The translations under genes were made by a program, and so were the position numbers. A DNA stretch of 33,484 bases, taken from assembly GCA_949287065.1 (NCBI GenBank), contig CASEEV010000038.1, forward strand, positions 1-33,484, in the 5' to 3' direction. Shown here in pieces: positions 19,540 to 25,985 of this stretch. The stretch comes from an uncultured Collinsella sp. Its GTDB lineage: Bacteria; Actinomycetota; Coriobacteriia; Coriobacteriales; Coriobacteriaceae. The notes under the pieces are model-generated. The model saw only the letters and a list, made by a program, of their open reading frames with translations, made no database searches and was not told where the DNA came from. Each line of letters starts with the position of its first letter. The first letter of the stretch is position 1.

Positions 19540-19860
19540 ATGGGAGCAATCAAAGAAGTTTCCGTCGATACCTTCGACGAGGTCCTGACGTCGGATCTGC
19601 CCGTTCTCGTTGACTTCTGGGCACCGTGGTGCGGCCCGTGCCGTGCGCTCGCGCCCGCCGTCGAGGAGATCGCCGGCGAGATGGCCGGCAAGCTCAAGGT
19701 CTTCAAGTGCAACGTCGACGAGAACCAAGACCTGGCCATGCGCTACCACGTCATGTCGATCCCCACGCTCGTGCTCTTCAAGGGCGGCGAAGAGGCGGCC
19801 CGCACGGTCGGCGCCATGCCCAAGCCGCGCCTGGTCGAGGAGATCAGCCGCAACCTGTAG
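19540..19860 (+). CDS. trxA: Thioredoxin
   Basis: A 106-residue thioredoxin, a cytosolic disulfide reductant for ribonucleotide reductase, peroxidases and others. The active site WCGPC sits in LVDFWAPWCGPCRALAPAVE (about residues 30-34), followed by 'KLKVFKCNVDENQDLAMRYH', the cis-proline loop 'SIPTLVLFKGGE' and the C-terminal helix. Length and order are standard. I start at ATG 19540, which has a near-perfect AAGGAGGT site; an upstream in-frame ATG at 19417 would add 41 residues without family resemblance. No thioredoxin reductase gene is adjacent. It has its own terminator. Confidence 0.97.
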   Translation: MGAIKEVSVDTFDEVLTSDLPVLVDFWAPWCGPCRALAPAVEEIAGEMAGKLKVFKCNVDENQDLAMRYHVMSIPTLVLFKGGEEAARTVGAMPKPRLVEEISRNL

Positions 19861-19921: not shown

Positions 19922-19949
19922 AAAGCCCCGAGACGCTCGGGGCTTTTTT
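19922..19949 (+). terminator. Rho-independent terminator of trxA
   Basis: AAGCCCCGAG and CTCGGGGCTT form a perfect 10-bp stem with a 3-nt ACG loop, followed by a T-run. It lies 61 bp past the trxA stop. The rest of the gap to 20040 shows no clear promoter or NikR-type box. Confidence 0.93.
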
Positions 19950-20040
19950 CTTGCCAAACCACGCTGTCCGCGGGCAGCGGCGGCCTGAGCGGTCGCACGC
20001 ACGCGCCCCGCGCCGCCTGCCGCAAACGAAAGGGTGCACC

Positions 20041-20289
20041 ATGCACGACGTCGGAATGAACATGAGCCAGCTTGCCATGACCGTCAAGCAGATCGACGAC
20101 ACGATCGAGCTTGCGCACGACTGGGCCCACGAGCTCACGCATGCGACCGAGAGCTTTGAGATGGACCGCATTGCCCACAAGCTCGAGCAGGCCATGGTGG
20201 CGCTCGGCGAGGCGCACGCCGCGCTCGAGGGCTACGAGGAGGCCATCGAGGCCGACCACAACTCCGTCGGATCGGTCAGGCTGGTGTAA
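20041..20289 (+). CDS. Unrecognised His-rich helical 82-residue protein at the head of the nikR-hyp run
   Basis: I do not recognise a family. The protein opens MHDVGMNMSQLAMTVKQIDD and appears to be two amphipathic helices (~8-36 and ~38-72) with an acidic surface, no signal peptide and no cysteine. It has seven histidines (2, 26, 30, 34, 46, 59, 73). H26, H30 and H34 in AHDWAHELTHA are spaced by four and would line one face of a helix, a geometry that can bind metal. The stop is 3 bp before the nikR ATG, and nikR is followed by hypF, so it is almost certainly co-expressed with nickel regulation and hydrogenase maturation. A role in nickel binding or delivery is inference. AAAGGGTG precedes ATG 20041. 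Confidence 0.75.
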   Translation: MHDVGMNMSQLAMTVKQIDDTIELAHDWAHELTHATESFEMDRIAHKLEQAMVALGEAHAALEGYEEAIEADHNSVGSVRLV

Positions 20290-20292
20290 CCC

Positions 20293-20724
20293 ATGCAGGA
20301 CAACGACCTCGTGCGGTTCTCGATCGCCGTTCCCGCCGGACTGCTGCGGCAGTTTGACGAGCAGATCGAGCGCACGCGCGGCGACCGCAACCGCTCCGAG
20401 GCGGTCCGCGACCTTATCCGCTCCTCCATTGTGCGCGAGAAGCTCCGGACCCCGGAGGAAGAGGTCATCGGCTCGCTCACGATGATCTACGACCACCACG
20501 CCGGCGACCTCACGCGCAGGCTCGACGACGTGCAGCACGACTACACCGACGAGATCGTCTCAACGTTGCACGTGCACCTCGACCACCACAACTGCCTCGA
20601 GATTCTGGCGCTGCGCGGCACCGGCGAGCGCGTGTACGAGCTGGCCGACCGCCTGCTCGCGCTCAAGGGCGTGAGCCACGGCGAGCTTACCTGCGCCGCC
20701 ACCGAGGGAAGCCTCGGGCTGTAG
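20293..20724 (+). CDS. nikR: Nickel-responsive transcriptional regulator NikR
   Basis: A 143-residue ribbon-helix-helix plus ACT-like regulator that binds DNA when loaded with nickel and usually represses nickel uptake. Residues ~5-48 form the RHH domain (LVRFSIAVPAGLLRQFDEQI then RTRGDRNRSEAVRDLIR). The high-affinity nickel ligands of E. coli NikR (H76, H87, H89, C95) are all present as H82 (DVQHDYTDE), H93, H95 and C101 in 'STLHVHLDHHNCLEILAL', with identical spacing. It lies between the small His-rich gene and hypF with 3-bp gaps on both sides. I found no GTATGA-N16-TCATAC operator in the window; its target may be elsewhere. Confidence 0.96.
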   Translation: MQDNDLVRFSIAVPAGLLRQFDEQIERTRGDRNRSEAVRDLIRSSIVREKLRTPEEEVIGSLTMIYDHHAGDLTRRLDDVQHDYTDEIVSTLHVHLDHHNCLEILALRGTGERVYELADRLLALKGVSHGELTCAATEGSLGL

Positions 20725-20727
20725 GGT

Positions 20728-23313
20728 ATGGCGCGGGCGCGGATACATATTTCGGGCATCGTGCAGGGCGTGGGGTTTAGGCCCTTCGTGTACCGCGAGG
20801 CGGTAGCGCGCGGACTTGCCGGCTGGGTGCTCAACGCCTCGGACGGCGTGCACGTAGAAGCTGCGGGGCCTAAGGAGGCGCTCGCGGACTTTGCGCGCGC
20901 GCTGAGCGACCGTGCGCCGGCCGCCGCACGTGTGACCGACGTGCAGGTGCGCTGGGGCGAGGAGAAGGGCAGCTCCAAAGCCGCGTGCGCCGGCTCGGCG
21001 GAGGCCTCCGGCGCGGCAGAGGCAGCAACTACGGGCGCTGTCCAAACGGGTGTCGCCGGCACGACCGCCGCCCGCTTTGAGATCCGCAGCTCGGACGACG
21101 CCGCGGCCAAAACCACGCTCGTCTCGCCCGACATAGCCACCTGCCCCGACTGTCTGCACGAGCTCTTTGACCCCGCCGACCGGCGCTACCATTACCCCTT
21201 TATCAACTGCACCAACTGCGGGCCGCGCTTCACCATCATCCGCGACCTGCCGTACGACCGCCCGCTCACCTCTATGGCGGGCTTTCCCATGTGCCCCGCC
21301 TGCGCCGCCGAGTACGCCGACCCCGCCGACCGGCGCTTTCATGCGCAGCCCGACGCCTGCTTTGCGTGCGGCCCGCACATCACCTGGCGAGAGGCTGCCG
21401 GAGGCGAACTTCTCGTAGGCAGCACGTGCGAGAAGAGCGACGCCCTTATCGCACGGTGCGCGGAGCTTCTTGCCAGCGGCGGCATTGTGGCCATCAAGGG
21501 GCTGGGCGGGTTTCACCTTGCCTGCGACGCCGCGAACGAGGCTGCCGTGGCAGAGCTCAGGCGCCGCAAGAGACGCTCCAACAAGCCGCTCGCCGTTATG
21601 GTGCGCAGCCTCGACGACGCGCGAGGTCTCTGCCGTGTGGGCAAGCTCGAAGCCGAGCTGCTCGCCGGCTCCGTGCGGCCCATCGTGCTGCTGAGGCAAA
21701 AGGCGGTCGAGAAGAACGCCGCCCTGGGTGAGGCCCGGGGCACGCGCTCGGGTCTTGCGCCGTCGGTGGCGTACGATCTGCCCGAGTTGGGCGTGATGCT
21801 CCCCTACACGCCCTTGCAGCACCTGCTGCTCGCCGCATGCGCCGAGCGCGACGTTTGCGCGCTGGTTATGACGAGCGGCAACGTATCCGAGGAGCCCATC
21901 GAGACCGACGACGACCTCGCATGGGAGCGCCTTGTAGCGAGCGGCCTGGCCGACGCGCTGCTTGGCAACGACCGCCCCATTCTCTCGCGCTACGACGACT
22001 CGGTCGTGCGCGTGGTCGAGGACGCCATCATGCCCGTGCGCCGCGCCCGCGGCTATGCGCCGCAGCCTGTGGCGCTGCCGCGCATCGAGGCTGCATGCGT
22101 GCCCGCCCTTCTCGCCTGCGGGGCCGAGCAGAAGGCAACCCTCGCCCTTACGCGCGAGGAGCAGAGCGGAGCGGCTTCGTGCTTTGTGTCGCAGCACATC
22201 GGCGATGTGGAGAACGTGTCGACCTTCGACGCGTGGCGCGAGGCGCGCCGGCGTCTGAGCGACCTCTTTGACCTTGAGCCGGAGGCACTTGCCTGCGACG
22301 CTCACCCCACCTACCTGGCGAGCCAGTGGGCCCGCGCCGAGGCAGAGAAGCGCGGGCTGCCGCTCGTGGAGGTGCAGCACCACCATGCGCACGTTGCCGC
22401 CGTGATGGCGGAGGCCGCGGCGCGCGGCGCGCTGGACCCCGGCGCGCGCACGGTGGGCATTGCATTTGACGGCACTGGCGCCGGCGCGGCCTACGCGGCC
22501 GATGCGGGCTCGGGCGCCGCCCTTGAGCTCGACGGCACCGTGTGGGGCAGCGAGGTTCTCGTAGCGGGTCTCGCGGGCTTTACGCGCGCAGCGCATCTGC
22601 TGCCCTGGCGCTTGCCAGGGGGTGCCGCTTCGGTGCGCGACGCACGACGCAATGCGCTTGCGCTCCTTATGGCCTGCAGCCTTGCCGACCTGCCCGCAGC
22701 GCAGCCCTTCCTCGGCGAGCTCGATGACCAGACTCGAGCCCTCACCGTCGCCATGGTGAAGCGCGGTCTCAACAGCCCCGTTACCACGAGCATGGGCCGG
22801 CTCTTCGACGCCGTGGCGGCGCTTCTGGGCATCTGCGGCCAGGCGACCTACGACGGCGAGCCCGCCATCGCGCTCGAAGCCGCAGCGTGGCGCGCCGAGG
22901 CCCAGGACGCAGGCGGGACCCCCGCCGCGTCCGCGCTGCCGGACTTCTCCCTCACCGAGGACGCGCAGGGCCCCGGCGCACTCGTGGCCGACCCCACGCC
23001 CGTACTCCGCGCCCTGCTCGAGCAGCACGCGGCCGGCTGCGCGCCCGAGCTACTCGCCCGCGCCTTCCACGAAGCGGTTGCCCGCATGGCGGCCGACCTT
23101 GCCGCGCGCATCGGCGAACGCGAAGGCATTGGCACGGTCGCGCTCGCCGGCGGCGTGTTTATGAACCGCTTGCTCCTTGCTCGAGTGCGCGAGCTTTTGC
23201 AGGCCCATGGCATGACCGTACTCGTGCCGCGCGACCTGCCCGTCAACGACGGTTGCATCGCCTACGGCCAGGCCGCCGTAGCCCGCGCCCGCCTCGCCGC
23301 CGGCCCCGCCTAG
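20728..23313 (+). CDS. hypF: Carbamoyltransferase HypF
   Basis: HypF makes thiocarboxamide on HypE from carbamoyl phosphate and ATP, the source of the CN ligands of [NiFe]-hydrogenase. The 861-residue protein has four domains in order. First is acylphosphatase (~1-80, ISGIVQGVGFRPFVYREAVA). Second are two zinc fingers with C139, C142, C161, C164, C189, C192, C211 and C214 in the family pattern. Third is a YrdC-like domain (~235-420, GIVAIKGLGGFHLACDAANE; LPYTPLQHLLL). Fourth is a Kae1-like domain (~450-860) with 'EVQHHHAHVAAVMAEAA' and 'ALAGGVFMNRLLLARVRELL'. It is about 110 residues longer than the E. coli protein, partly from an Ala/Gly/Thr-rich linker at ~80-118. The start is 3 bp after nikR. 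Confidence 0.97.
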   Translation: MARARIHISGIVQGVGFRPFVYREAVARGLAGWVLNASDGVHVEAAGPKEALADFARALSDRAPAAARVTDVQVRWGEEKGSSKAACAGSAEASGAAEAATTGAVQTGVAGTTAARFEIRSSDDAAAKTTLVSPDIATCPDCLHELFDPADRRYHYPFINCTNCGPRFTIIRDLPYDRPLTSMAGFPMCPACAAEYADPADRRFHAQPDACFACGPHITWREAAGGELLVGSTCEKSDALIARCAELLASGGIVAIKGLGGFHLACDAANEAAVAELRRRKRRSNKPLAVMVRSLDDARGLCRVGKLEAELLAGSVRPIVLLRQKAVEKNAALGEARGTRSGLAPSVAYDLPELGVMLPYTPLQHLLLAACAERDVCALVMTSGNVSEEPIETDDDLAWERLVASGLADALLGNDRPILSRYDDSVVRVVEDAIMPVRRARGYAPQPVALPRIEAACVPALLACGAEQKATLALTREEQSGAASCFVSQHIGDVENVSTFDAWREARRRLSDLFDLEPEALACDAHPTYLASQWARAEAEKRGLPLVEVQHHHAHVAAVMAEAAARGALDPGARTVGIAFDGTGAGAAYAADAGSGAALELDGTVWGSEVLVAGLAGFTRAAHLLPWRLPGGAASVRDARRNALALLMACSLADLPAAQPFLGELDDQTRALTVAMVKRGLNSPVTTSMGRLFDAVAALLGICGQATYDGEPAIALEAAAWRAEAQDAGGTPAASALPDFSLTEDAQGPGALVADPTPVLRALLEQHAAGCAPELLARAFHEAVARMAADLAARIGEREGIGTVALAGGVFMNRLLLARVRELLQAHGMTVLVPRDLPVNDGCIAYGQAAVARARLAAGPA

Positions 23314-23409: not shown

Positions 23410-23440
23410 AGGCACGGAAACATCGTCGAAAGGCCACCGC

Positions 23441-23740
23441 ATGTGCCTCGCAGTACCCGGTAAGATCACCGCGCTCGACGCGGACGCCGCAACGGCTACC
23501 GTCAACATGCTCGGCGTGGAGCAGCGCGCCTCCACCCGTCTCATTCCCACCGCCCAAGTGGGCGACTACGTGCTCGTGCACGCCGGCTTTGGCATCCAGA
23601 TCGTCAGCGCCGAGGAGGCCGAGGAGACGCTCAAGCTCGTGGCCGACCTCACCGAGCTCGTGGAAGACGAGCTGCCCGTAGCCGACTCCGACCCCGCACC
23701 TGCAAGCGACCCCGAGCCCGCTGCGACTGGCGCGCGCTAG
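23441..23740 (+). CDS. hypC: Hydrogenase maturation chaperone HypC
   Basis: HypC forms a complex with HypD to assemble the Fe(CN)2CO unit and then docks on the hydrogenase large-subunit precursor. The protein starts MCLAVPGKI, so the essential Cys2 is exposed after removal of methionine; an OB-fold strand pattern follows with 'VGDYVLVHAGFGIQIV', which carries the conserved His. I start at ATG 23441 for this reason; an upstream in-frame start at 23363 would hide Cys2. At 99 residues it is slightly longer than usual because of a Pro/Ala/Asp-rich tail after ~80. hypD begins 1 bp after its stop. Confidence 0.95.
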   Translation: MCLAVPGKITALDADAATATVNMLGVEQRASTRLIPTAQVGDYVLVHAGFGIQIVSAEEAEETLKLVADLTELVEDELPVADSDPAPASDPEPAATGAR

Positions 23741-23741
23741 T

Positions 23742-24932
23742 ATGAACGCCCCCGCCAGCACCGCGGCAGAAGAGCCGCTTGCCCCGGGCACCGCGAGCGC
23801 CTCTGCCCCCGACCCTTCCGCTGCCCCTCACGCCGCCCCCGACCTCGCTGCCTTCCGCGACCCCGTCCGCGCACGCGAGCTCATCGCCGCCATCAACCGA
23901 ACGGTCGAAGCGGCGGGGCGCCCCATCAACCTCATGGAGGTCTGCGGCACGCACACGGTGAGCATCGGGCGTTACGGCTTCCGCTCGGTCATGCCCGACG
24001 GTCTCAAACTGCTTTCTGGACCCGGGTGCCCGGTCTGCGTGACCGCCAACGCCGACATCGACCACGCCATCGCACTCGCCCGCATGGACGGCGCGCTTAT
24101 CGCCACGTTCGGCGACATGGTGCGCGTCCCCGGCTCCACCTCGTCGCTTGCCGCCGAGAAGGCCGCCGGGCGCGACGTGCGCATCGTGTACTCGCCGCTC
24201 GACGCGCTCGACCTCGCCGCCGAGAACCCCGAGCGCCAGGTCATCTTCATGGGCGTGGGCTTTGAGACCACTACGCCCGCTATCGCGGCCTGCATTCTCG
24301 AGGCCGAGGCGCGCGGCCTGCAGAACTTCTCGGTTTTCTCGGCGCATAAGATGACGCCGCCCGCGCTCAAGGCCATTGCCGACGACCCCGAGACCCGTAT
24401 CGACGGGTTCATTCTGCCCGGACATGTGTCGACCATCACGGGGCTCGCGCCGTACCGGTTCTTGGCGGAACAGTACCGTACGCCGGGCGTGGTCACCGGC
24501 TTTGAGCCGGTGGACATTCTGGCGAGCGTGGAGTGGCTGTGCCGCATGGTCGCGCGCGGCGAGGCGCGCATTGAGAACGCCTACCAGCGCGGCGTTGCCG
24601 CAGACGGCAACCCGGTGGCGCGCGCCCTGGTAGAGCAGGTCTTTGAGCCGGTCGACGCCGTGTGGCGCGGGCTGGGAACGCTGCCGCAGTCGGGTCTTGC
24701 CATCAGGTCCGCGTTTGCGCGCTTCGACGCGCGGACGCGCTTTGAGGTGCCCGTTGAGCCCACGCGCGAGCCCGCCGGCTGCCGCTGCGGCGACGTGCTG
24801 CGCGGGGCGCTGGCCCCCAACCGCTGCCCGCTCTTTGGCCGCGCCTGCACGCCCGAGCACCCCGTGGGTCCGTGCATGGTCTCGACCGAGGGAAGCTGCG
24901 CCGCGTACTTCCGCTACCGCGAGGAGGCATAA
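23742..24932 (+). CDS. hypD: Hydrogenase maturation protein HypD
   Basis: HypD is the [4Fe-4S] scaffold on which, with HypC, iron receives CN and CO. Conserved motifs are 'INLMEVCGTHTVSIGRYGFR' (C68), 'LLSGPGCPVCVT' (C96, C99), 'GFETTTPAIAA' and 'ILPGHVSTITGLAPYRFL'. The C-terminal cluster cysteines lie in 'AGCRCGDVLRGALAPNRCPL' and 'GPCMVSTEGSCAAYFRY'. The 396-residue length is about 20-30 more than usual, from an Ala/Pro-rich N-terminal extension of ~35 residues before the conserved domain. The start is 1 bp after the hypC stop, consistent with coupled translation. Confidence 0.96.
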   Translation: MNAPASTAAEEPLAPGTASASAPDPSAAPHAAPDLAAFRDPVRARELIAAINRTVEAAGRPINLMEVCGTHTVSIGRYGFRSVMPDGLKLLSGPGCPVCVTANADIDHAIALARMDGALIATFGDMVRVPGSTSSLAAEKAAGRDVRIVYSPLDALDLAAENPERQVIFMGVGFETTTPAIAACILEAEARGLQNFSVFSAHKMTPPALKAIADDPETRIDGFILPGHVSTITGLAPYRFLAEQYRTPGVVTGFEPVDILASVEWLCRMVARGEARIENAYQRGVAADGNPVARALVEQVFEPVDAVWRGLGTLPQSGLAIRSAFARFDARTRFEVPVEPTREPAGCRCGDVLRGALAPNRCPLFGRACTPEHPVGPCMVSTEGSCAAYFRYREEA

Positions 24933-24935
24933 CGT

Positions 24936-25985
24936 ATGGCAGACACCACCGTTCTGCTCGGCCATGGGTCGGGCGGGCAGATGATGAAGCGCCTTATTGA
25001 CGAGATGTTCTTGGAGGCCTTCGGCAACCCGGCGCTCAACGAGGGCAACGACGCCGGCGTGGCGCCGCTCGGCGCGAGCGAGAATGGCGAGGCCGGGAGC
25101 GCCCCGGTTCGCATTGCCATGTCGACCGACAGCTTCGTGGTGACCCCGCAGTTCTTTCCGGGCGGCAACATCGGGCGGCTCGCCGTGTGCGGCACCGTAA
25201 ACGACGTGGCCACCTCGGGCGCACGCGTGCGCTATCTCTCGTGCGGGTTCATCCTCGAAGAGGGCTACCCCATGGACAAGCTGCGCGCCATCTGCCAGAG
25301 CATGGCCGACACCGCGCGCGAGGCGGGCGTGGCCATTATCACCGGCGACACCAAGGTCGTGGAGCGCGGCGGTGCCGACGGCGTGTACATCAACACGGCC
25401 GGCGTGGGCGAGCTGCCTGCGGGCGCGGAGCTCTCGGGCGCTAACTGCCGCCCCGGCGACAAGGTGCTCGTCTCGGGCACCCTTGGCGACCACGGCATCG
25501 CGATCATGAGCCAGCGCGAGGGGCTTGCGTTTGCGGCCCCCATCGAGTCCGACGCCGCACCGCTCAACCACCTTATTGCCGCCGTTATGGAGGCGGCGCC
25601 GAGCGCACGTTGCTTCCGCGACCCCACGCGCGGCGGCCTGGCGAGCACCCTGAACGAGTTTGCCGCCGCGAGCAACGTTGAGATCGAGATCAGCGAGGAA
25701 GCCGTGCCCGTGCGCGATGCCGTGCGCGGCGCCTGCGAGATGCTCGGCTACGACGTGCTGCAGGTGGCCAACGAGGGCAAGATGGTCGCCGTGGTGCCGC
25801 CCGAAGAGGCCGACGCTGCGCTCGCCGCCATGCGCGCCAGCCGCTACGGCGAGAACGCCGCTGTTATCGGCGAGATCCTGCCGCTCACAGAAGGTGCTTC
25901 TCCGCGCGTTCGCGTGCGTACGCCTTGGGGCTCGGCCCGCGTGCTCGACATGCTGGTGGGCGAACAGCTCCCCCGCATCTGCTAA
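24936..25985 (+). CDS. hypE: Hydrogenase maturation protein HypE
   Basis: HypE dehydrates the thiocarboxamide made by HypF to thiocyanate on its own C-terminal cysteine and passes CN to HypC/HypD. The 349-residue PurM-like protein has the N-terminal 'LLGHGSGGQMMKRLIDEMF', the ATP-site motifs 'MSTDSFVVTPQFFPGGNIGR' and 'AVCGTVNDVATSGA', and 'FRDPTRGGLASTLNEFA'. It ends in the diagnostic PRIC with the terminal cysteine intact. GAGGAGG lies upstream and the start is 3 bp after the hypD stop. It is the last hyp gene here; hypA and hypB are not in the window. Confidence 0.97.
   Translation: MADTTVLLGHGSGGQMMKRLIDEMFLEAFGNPALNEGNDAGVAPLGASENGEAGSAPVRIAMSTDSFVVTPQFFPGGNIGRLAVCGTVNDVATSGARVRYLSCGFILEEGYPMDKLRAICQSMADTAREAGVAIITGDTKVVERGGADGVYINTAGVGELPAGAELSGANCRPGDKVLVSGTLGDHGIAIMSQREGLAFAAPIESDAAPLNHLIAAVMEAAPSARCFRDPTRGGLASTLNEFAAASNVEIEISEEAVPVRDAVRGACEMLGYDVLQVANEGKMVAVVPPEEADAALAAMRASRYGENAAVIGEILPLTEGASPRVRVRTPWGSARVLDMLVGEQLPRIC

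Follow-up and report, generated by a model that had tools for sequence, protein, structure and literature searches.

A small helical protein encoded beside nikR and hyp genes in Coriobacteriia: an undescribed family with a probable role in nickel handling

Introduction

The described proteins that come closest to the one reported here bind nickel near their N-terminus or are small nickel proteins of accessory function. HypA (PF01155), the nickel metallochaperone of hydrogenase and urease, binds nickel by its N-terminal amine and the His2 of a Met-His-Glu (MHE) start, and the nickel ligands of Escherichia coli HypB are Cys2, Cys5, Cys7 and the N-terminal amine (both according to the available part of PMC7055735). 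CooT (PF10133), a small protein of CO dehydrogenase operons, uses Cys2 for nickel and is all beta, and the gene next to cooT encodes CooJ, a nickel protein with a histidine tail (PMC6006190, available part). SCO4226 of Streptomyces coelicolor is an 82-residue protein that is reported to bind nickel and to have a ferredoxin-like fold (PMC4186839, likewise in part).

In this study, we analyzed ORF82, an 82-residue protein encoded in a stretch of 33,484 nucleotides from an uncultured Collinsella sp., which is called the window throughout. The original prediction, made from the letters of the window, had proposed a metal-binding helical hairpin that could act as a nickel chaperone or as a partner of NikR. 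The linkage of ORF82 to nikR and hyp genes supports a nickel role, and ORF82 very probably belongs to the nickel pathway and likely binds nickel directly.

The ORF82 gene and its surroundings

The features of the window that matter here are the following.
19540 to 19860, forward strand: trxA, thioredoxin, upstream of ORF82 (PF00085, 105.4 bits); adjoins ORF82 in many relatives
19922 to 19946, forward strand: terminator-like stem-loop between trxA and ORF82
20029 to 20034, forward strand: AAAGGG, probable ribosome-binding site of ORF82, read from the sequence
20041 to 20289, forward strand: ORF82, 82 amino acids, ATG start, with His2, W28, H30, H34 and H73; conserved family without a name
20293 to 20724, forward strand: nikR, nickel-responsive regulator (NF003381, 170.5 bits, cut-off 105; PF08753, 110.6 bits)
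20728 to 23313, forward strand: hypF, carbamoyltransferase of hydrogenase maturation (TIGR00143, 690 bits)
23435 to 23740, forward strand: hypC (TIGR00074, 74.6 bits, cut-off 48); the start is that of the scan and the true one may be a few codons off
23742 to 24932, forward strand: hypD (TIGR00075, 462.1 bits)
24936 to 25985, forward strand: hypE (TIGR02124, 441.3 bits)

The probable ribosome-binding site ends 6 bases ahead of the start codon, and the TAA stop is followed by three bases (CCC) and the ATG of nikR at 20293. The run that had been read from ORF82 through nikR into hypF was thus confirmed in its coordinates, as were the identities of NikR, HypF, HypC, HypD and HypE. Since the terminator-like stem parts trxA from ORF82, the latter probably opens the transcription unit with nikR. 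A simple pattern search upstream of ORF82 returned no NikR-like operator. At Collinsella loci such as L005, L016 and L038, nikR seems to have a His-rich N-terminal extension, the frame after ORF82 starting with VAEHEHGCGYEH or similar.

ORF82 is a real gene under purifying selection, with a median dN/dS of 0.195 (24 genes, 266 usable of 276 pairs). Its length is exactly 82 amino acids in all 30 distinct sequences obtained from 76 loci, which come from overlapping sets with some genomes counted twice. The protein has a net charge of -12 and no membrane segment (maximal Kyte-Doolittle value of 0.61 over 19 residues). As predicted, it contains seven histidines (residues 2, 26, 30, 34, 46, 59 and 73), of which H26, H30 and H34 are spaced i, i+4 and i+8, and no cysteine. 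Compared with a histidine content of 2.2% in seven neighbouring proteins, the binomial probability of seven histidines in 82 residues is 0.002; taken alone, this enrichment is modest.

Structure model and family searches

An AlphaFold2 model based on 70 relatives agrees with the predicted helical hairpin (helices 8-38, 42-61 and 65-76; mean pLDDT 89.6). Residues 1-7 form a conserved N-terminal arm outside the helices, and residues 1-3 are of low confidence. Because the model places residue 2 at one end of helix 1 and residue 34 at the other, they would not form a single site within a monomer. The core of CooJ is a helical coiled coil.

Foldseek returned no match below an E-value of 0.5 for the first model or below 1.3 for the second, and VIA-align retrieved many helical hairpins, such as the arms of seryl-tRNA synthetases (Z up to 9.4), which indicates no more than a common arrangement. 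HypA, CooT and CooJ are absent from both match lists, an absence that excludes nothing, and the same holds for CooJ among the PDB profile matches of ORF82, which yielded nothing useful. Searches of Pfam and NCBIfam with the 70 members gave no convincing match, only scattered weak ones to unrelated families in at most four members (best E-value 1e-4); those with five outgroup members gave no convincing match, and PHROGs contained none for the ORF82 of the window. The family of ORF82 is therefore one that these libraries do not cover with a model. A literature search, with most subscription journals outside its reach, found no description of the family.

HypA, HypB and hydrogenase in the same genome

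It had been noted that hypA and hypB, the usual nickel-delivery pair, are absent from the window. This is correct, but both genes are present together on another contig of the same genome (contig C81, locus L240, 4352-5409, reverse strand). HypB scores 242.7 bits with TIGR00073 (cut-off 121.2), and HypA scores 85 bits, slightly below the TIGR00100 cut-off of 88.1 and above the Pfam cut-off; its sequence starts V/M-H-E. ORF82 as a replacement for HypA and HypB was thus rejected; since both are encoded elsewhere in the genome, ORF82 adds to them. The HypB starts with MAEKTVSL and is rich in neither Cys nor His at its N-terminus, so that a separate store of nickel would still have a place. A further cluster (contig C27, locus L241, 1540-7319, forward strand) encodes subunits of complex-I-like and antiporter-like type together with a large subunit resembling that of nickel hydrogenases, which has a short PF00374 match; we take the cluster to be a probable group 4 membrane-bound hydrogenase.

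Distribution in Coriobacteriaceae, the class and the phylum

ORF82 is present in 57 of 65 Coriobacteriaceae genomes. The NikR_C domain occurs in exactly the same 57 genomes, the same eight lacking both, and in all 57 carriers a NikR domain is located 181-378 bases downstream of ORF82, on the same strand of the same contig. The hydrogenase large subunit domain PF00374, which also matches complex-I-like subunits, is likewise found in 57 of 65 genomes, but the set is a different one: G053 (81% complete) has ORF82 and no PF00374 match, while G039 (87% complete) has the match and no ORF82.

A profile built from the 70 relatives was then used to search 396 genomes of the class, in which ORF82 was found in 260, NikR_C in 254 and HypD in 291. 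ORF82 coincides with NikR in 228 genomes, with 32 carriers lacking NikR and 26 NikR genomes lacking ORF82; with HypD it coincides in 252, leaving eight carriers without HypD and 39 HypD genomes without ORF82. The corresponding Fisher P values for NikR or HypD are tiny, but they ignore the kinship of the genomes; for the same reason none of the co-occurrence and adjacency counts are independent. Among the eight carriers without HypD, one (G251) has hypE near ORF82 (L147) and several are incomplete. The expectation that homologues always accompany nikR and hyp thus proved exact for nikR within the family and nearly so for HypD in the class, but not for NikR in the class. Occurrence in genomes without nickel enzymes, which would have spoken against a nickel role, concerns at most eight of 260 carriers when judged by HypD. 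The 39 HypD genomes without ORF82 indicate that the protein is not needed everywhere for hydrogenase maturation.

These counts bear on the possibility that ORF82 is a NikR accessory protein, which would adjust the repression of nickel genes by binding to NikR or by supplying it with nickel, with delivery to hydrogenase being secondary. The invariable position of nikR directly downstream in the 57 family carriers and the presence of ORF82 in 228 of the 254 NikR genomes fit this explanation, but a NikR_C match is missing from 32 of the 260 carriers, and in several of these ORF82 lies between cooT and nikM (L193, L196, L201, L209 and L211). Moreover, 21 of the 26 NikR genomes without ORF82 belong to a single family (f2, at a guess Atopobiaceae); at nine nikR loci of this family (L227-L235) a hyp match is found nearby in none and a nikM match in six. 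We consider an accessory function for NikR unlikely, and the idea of an obligate NikR partner was rejected on the counts in both directions.

In a phylum sample of 110 genomes, 14 matched ORF82, six from the order of the window and eight marked as sharing the phylum only; of these eight, one (L225) was discarded as a false match, since it lies within a longer coiled-coil protein. Judged by these profile matches, the family extends beyond Coriobacteriaceae, into much of the class and to weaker relatives outside it.

Gene neighbourhoods

Neighbourhoods were surveyed by tblastn at 29 chosen Coriobacteriaceae loci (of 46) and at 49 distant loci, which were chosen and not random (20 from the matches of one search and 29 from a set of 30 genomes). 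For NikR and Hyp, the identity of the queries was verified with NCBIfam, and for CooT, DUF3842, CbiM, ABC ATPase, thioredoxin and the PIN-TPR protein that of one query each with Pfam, while the labels nikQ and trxB are our own presumptive assignments. Within 5 kb of ORF82, nikR was found at all 29 family loci and at 29 of the 49 distant ones, and any nickel gene (nikR, hyp, nikMQO or cooT) at 29 of 29 and 46 of 49, respectively, the exceptions being L143, L150 and L155. ORF82-nikR-hypE is a common arrangement within the order, and trxB-trxA-ORF82 followed by nikR and nikMQO or hypF is common in the outer class.

At five loci from genomes without NikR (L193, L196, L201, L209 and L211), the order is trxA-DUF3842-cooT-ORF82-nikM-nikQ-nikO-hypF. 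The seven outgroup relatives (L218-L224) resemble this: cooT lies directly upstream of ORF82 in all seven, preceded by DUF3842, trxA and trxB, and nikMQO matches occur in the stretch. A search for CooT in 14 chosen genomes found it in three (G067, G432 and G497) and not in G000. Transporters of the CbiM type may carry cobalt; nickel is preferred for those linked to ORF82 because nikR and hyp genes are nearby.

That ORF82 forms part of the nickel/cobalt transporter NikMQO as a subunit, or regulates it, would be consistent with nikM being located 3' of ORF82 at many outer-class and outgroup loci (on the same strand in six of the seven outgroup loci). We regard it as highly improbable, since none of the 29 family loci has a nikM match near ORF82 and the protein lacks a membrane segment.

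Two side observations concern the genes around trxA. DUF3842 (PF12953), a domain of unknown function, and CooT (PF10133) adjoin between trxA and ORF82 at the five class and seven outgroup loci named above, beside the nickel/cobalt transporter, and from this position DUF3842 may belong to nickel handling as well. A PIN-TPR protein is encoded within 5 kb of ORF82 at 24 of the 49 distant loci (L191, L207 and 22 others) and accompanies trxA and ORF82, together with thioredoxin reductase, at outer-class and outgroup loci.

Conserved residues

Within the family, residue 2 is histidine in all 30 variants, and H30, H34 and H73 are invariant. H46 varies, and H26 and H59 are replaced by arginine in 19 of the 30. 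The triad of H26, H30 and H34, which had been proposed as the metal site, was therefore rejected. At 44 of the 49 other class loci, residue 2, counted from the nearest ATG, GTG or TTG, is cysteine; at the remaining five, ATT or ATC immediately precedes the conserved cysteine. The latter (L197, L202, L203, L206 and L213) all belong to family f16, and their ORF82 homologues seem to start at this codon. An in-frame TAG is located two codons upstream of the ATT at L197 and L203, which makes ATT the likeliest start codon there.

In an alignment (A2) from which L149 was left out because it extends beyond the usual end, and in which the five ATT/ATC loci were trimmed to that codon, all 48 non-family rows, these five included, have cysteine at position 2. 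H34 is retained in 46 of these rows and H30 in 24 of 24 within the order but in 2 of 24 beyond it; H73 is not conserved class-wide, and the outgroup members have neither H30 nor H34. Homologues without the histidines, which were to count against a nickel role, thus exist for most of the seven, but H34 persists outside the family and H30 within the order. The replacement of His2 by cysteine points to a different, N-terminal site. Six of the seven outgroup members also start with MC, while the start of L224 is ambiguous, with M-H-W in frame. An alternating histidine tail closes five of the seven, and a sixth (L223) ends in an HHH stretch. In the columns for residues 79-82, which lie outside the helices with low model confidence, nearly all class members show a Val-x-x-Val/Leu/Ile pattern, with V79 in 69 of 70 rows.

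Cys2 is usually the sole cysteine of the relatives that carry it, as would suit a thiol switch with the neighbouring thioredoxin as its partner, and trxA is found within 5 kb at 23 of 29 family and 29 of 49 distant loci. Such a redox function is very unlikely, because every family variant has His2 although trxA is still nearby and a terminator-like stem separates the two genes in the window. An assembly factor that acts on hydrogenase or the Hyp complex by binding protein and no metal would agree with a plain helical hairpin suited to protein-protein contacts and with the tight hyp linkage (HypD in 252 of 260 carriers). This is quite unlikely as well, since the interchange of cysteine and histidine at residue 2 and the histidine tails of the outgroup are hard to explain without metal. 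Given that residue 2 is either cysteine or histidine and that the neighbours serve nickel transport, sensing and hydrogenase maturation, a metal ligand is the best explanation for this residue.

Comparison with known nickel proteins

ORF82 shares with HypA the nickel context and a His2 followed by an acidic residue, MHD compared with MHE (PMC7055735, available part). The Met-His-Glu motif itself does not occur: the 30 family variants read MHD and other class members MC, so that His2 alone is common to both. In addition, ORF82 has no match to PF01155 or TIGR00100 at E-values up to 1, nor has any of the 70 members; a separate, true HypA is encoded in the same genome; and, as the ORF82 of the window has no cysteine, it has no CXXC zinc site, unlike HypA with its two. 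E. coli HypB resembles the relatives with Cys2 in using Cys2 and the N-terminal amine as ligands (PMC7055735, same part), but is a GTPase, a domain which ORF82 lacks.

The similarity to CooT lies in the small size, the Cys2 of most ORF82 relatives and the adjoining genes in the outgroups and at five class loci. In contrast, ORF82 members have no PF10133 match while their true CooT neighbours do, the window protein has His2 instead of Cys2, and it is modelled as helical, whereas CooT is all beta (PMC6006190, available part). Like CooJ as described in that part, ORF82 can be encoded next to cooT and has a His-rich C-terminus in outgroup members, but the window protein has no His tail or His-rich C-terminal domain, and the tail of the outgroup members is short. 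SCO4226 is likewise an actinobacterial protein of 82 residues, reported to bind nickel, but has a ferredoxin-like fold according to PMC4186839, and nothing suggests homology with ORF82.

Proposed role and significance

We see a somewhat better than even chance that ORF82 belongs to a new family of small soluble accessory proteins that bind nickel, and that it takes up or buffers cytosolic nickel and hands it on toward [NiFe]-hydrogenase maturation. The N-terminal amine together with His2 or Cys2 would ligate nickel, in a manner comparable to HypA, E. coli HypB and CooT; H34, with H30 in the order, may provide a second set of ligands, possibly across a dimer; and HypA/HypB or the hydrogenase would receive the metal. 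ORF82 is linked to genes of nickel transport, regulation or enzyme maturation, the mark of the functional kind considered here, and if the nickel assignment holds, the family is of a known functional kind.

More tentatively, and with somewhat less than an even chance, the family may be an undescribed nickel metallochaperone with an N-terminal metal site that was ancestral in deep Actinomycetota within a trxB-trxA-DUF3842-cooT-ORF82-nikMQO module. Residue 2 would have changed from cysteine to histidine in Coriobacteriaceae, and the protein would have outlived CooT and become fixed beside nikR and hyp.

Nickel hydrogenases operate in Coriobacteriia from gut and environmental habitats. Should ORF82 carry nickel, it would be an unrecognised player in a pathway that is usually drawn with HypA, HypB and SlyD, and it would provide for comparison a single metal site with a natural exchange between Cys and His. 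A function would also be given to a protein that roughly two thirds of the sampled class genomes encode (260 of 396).
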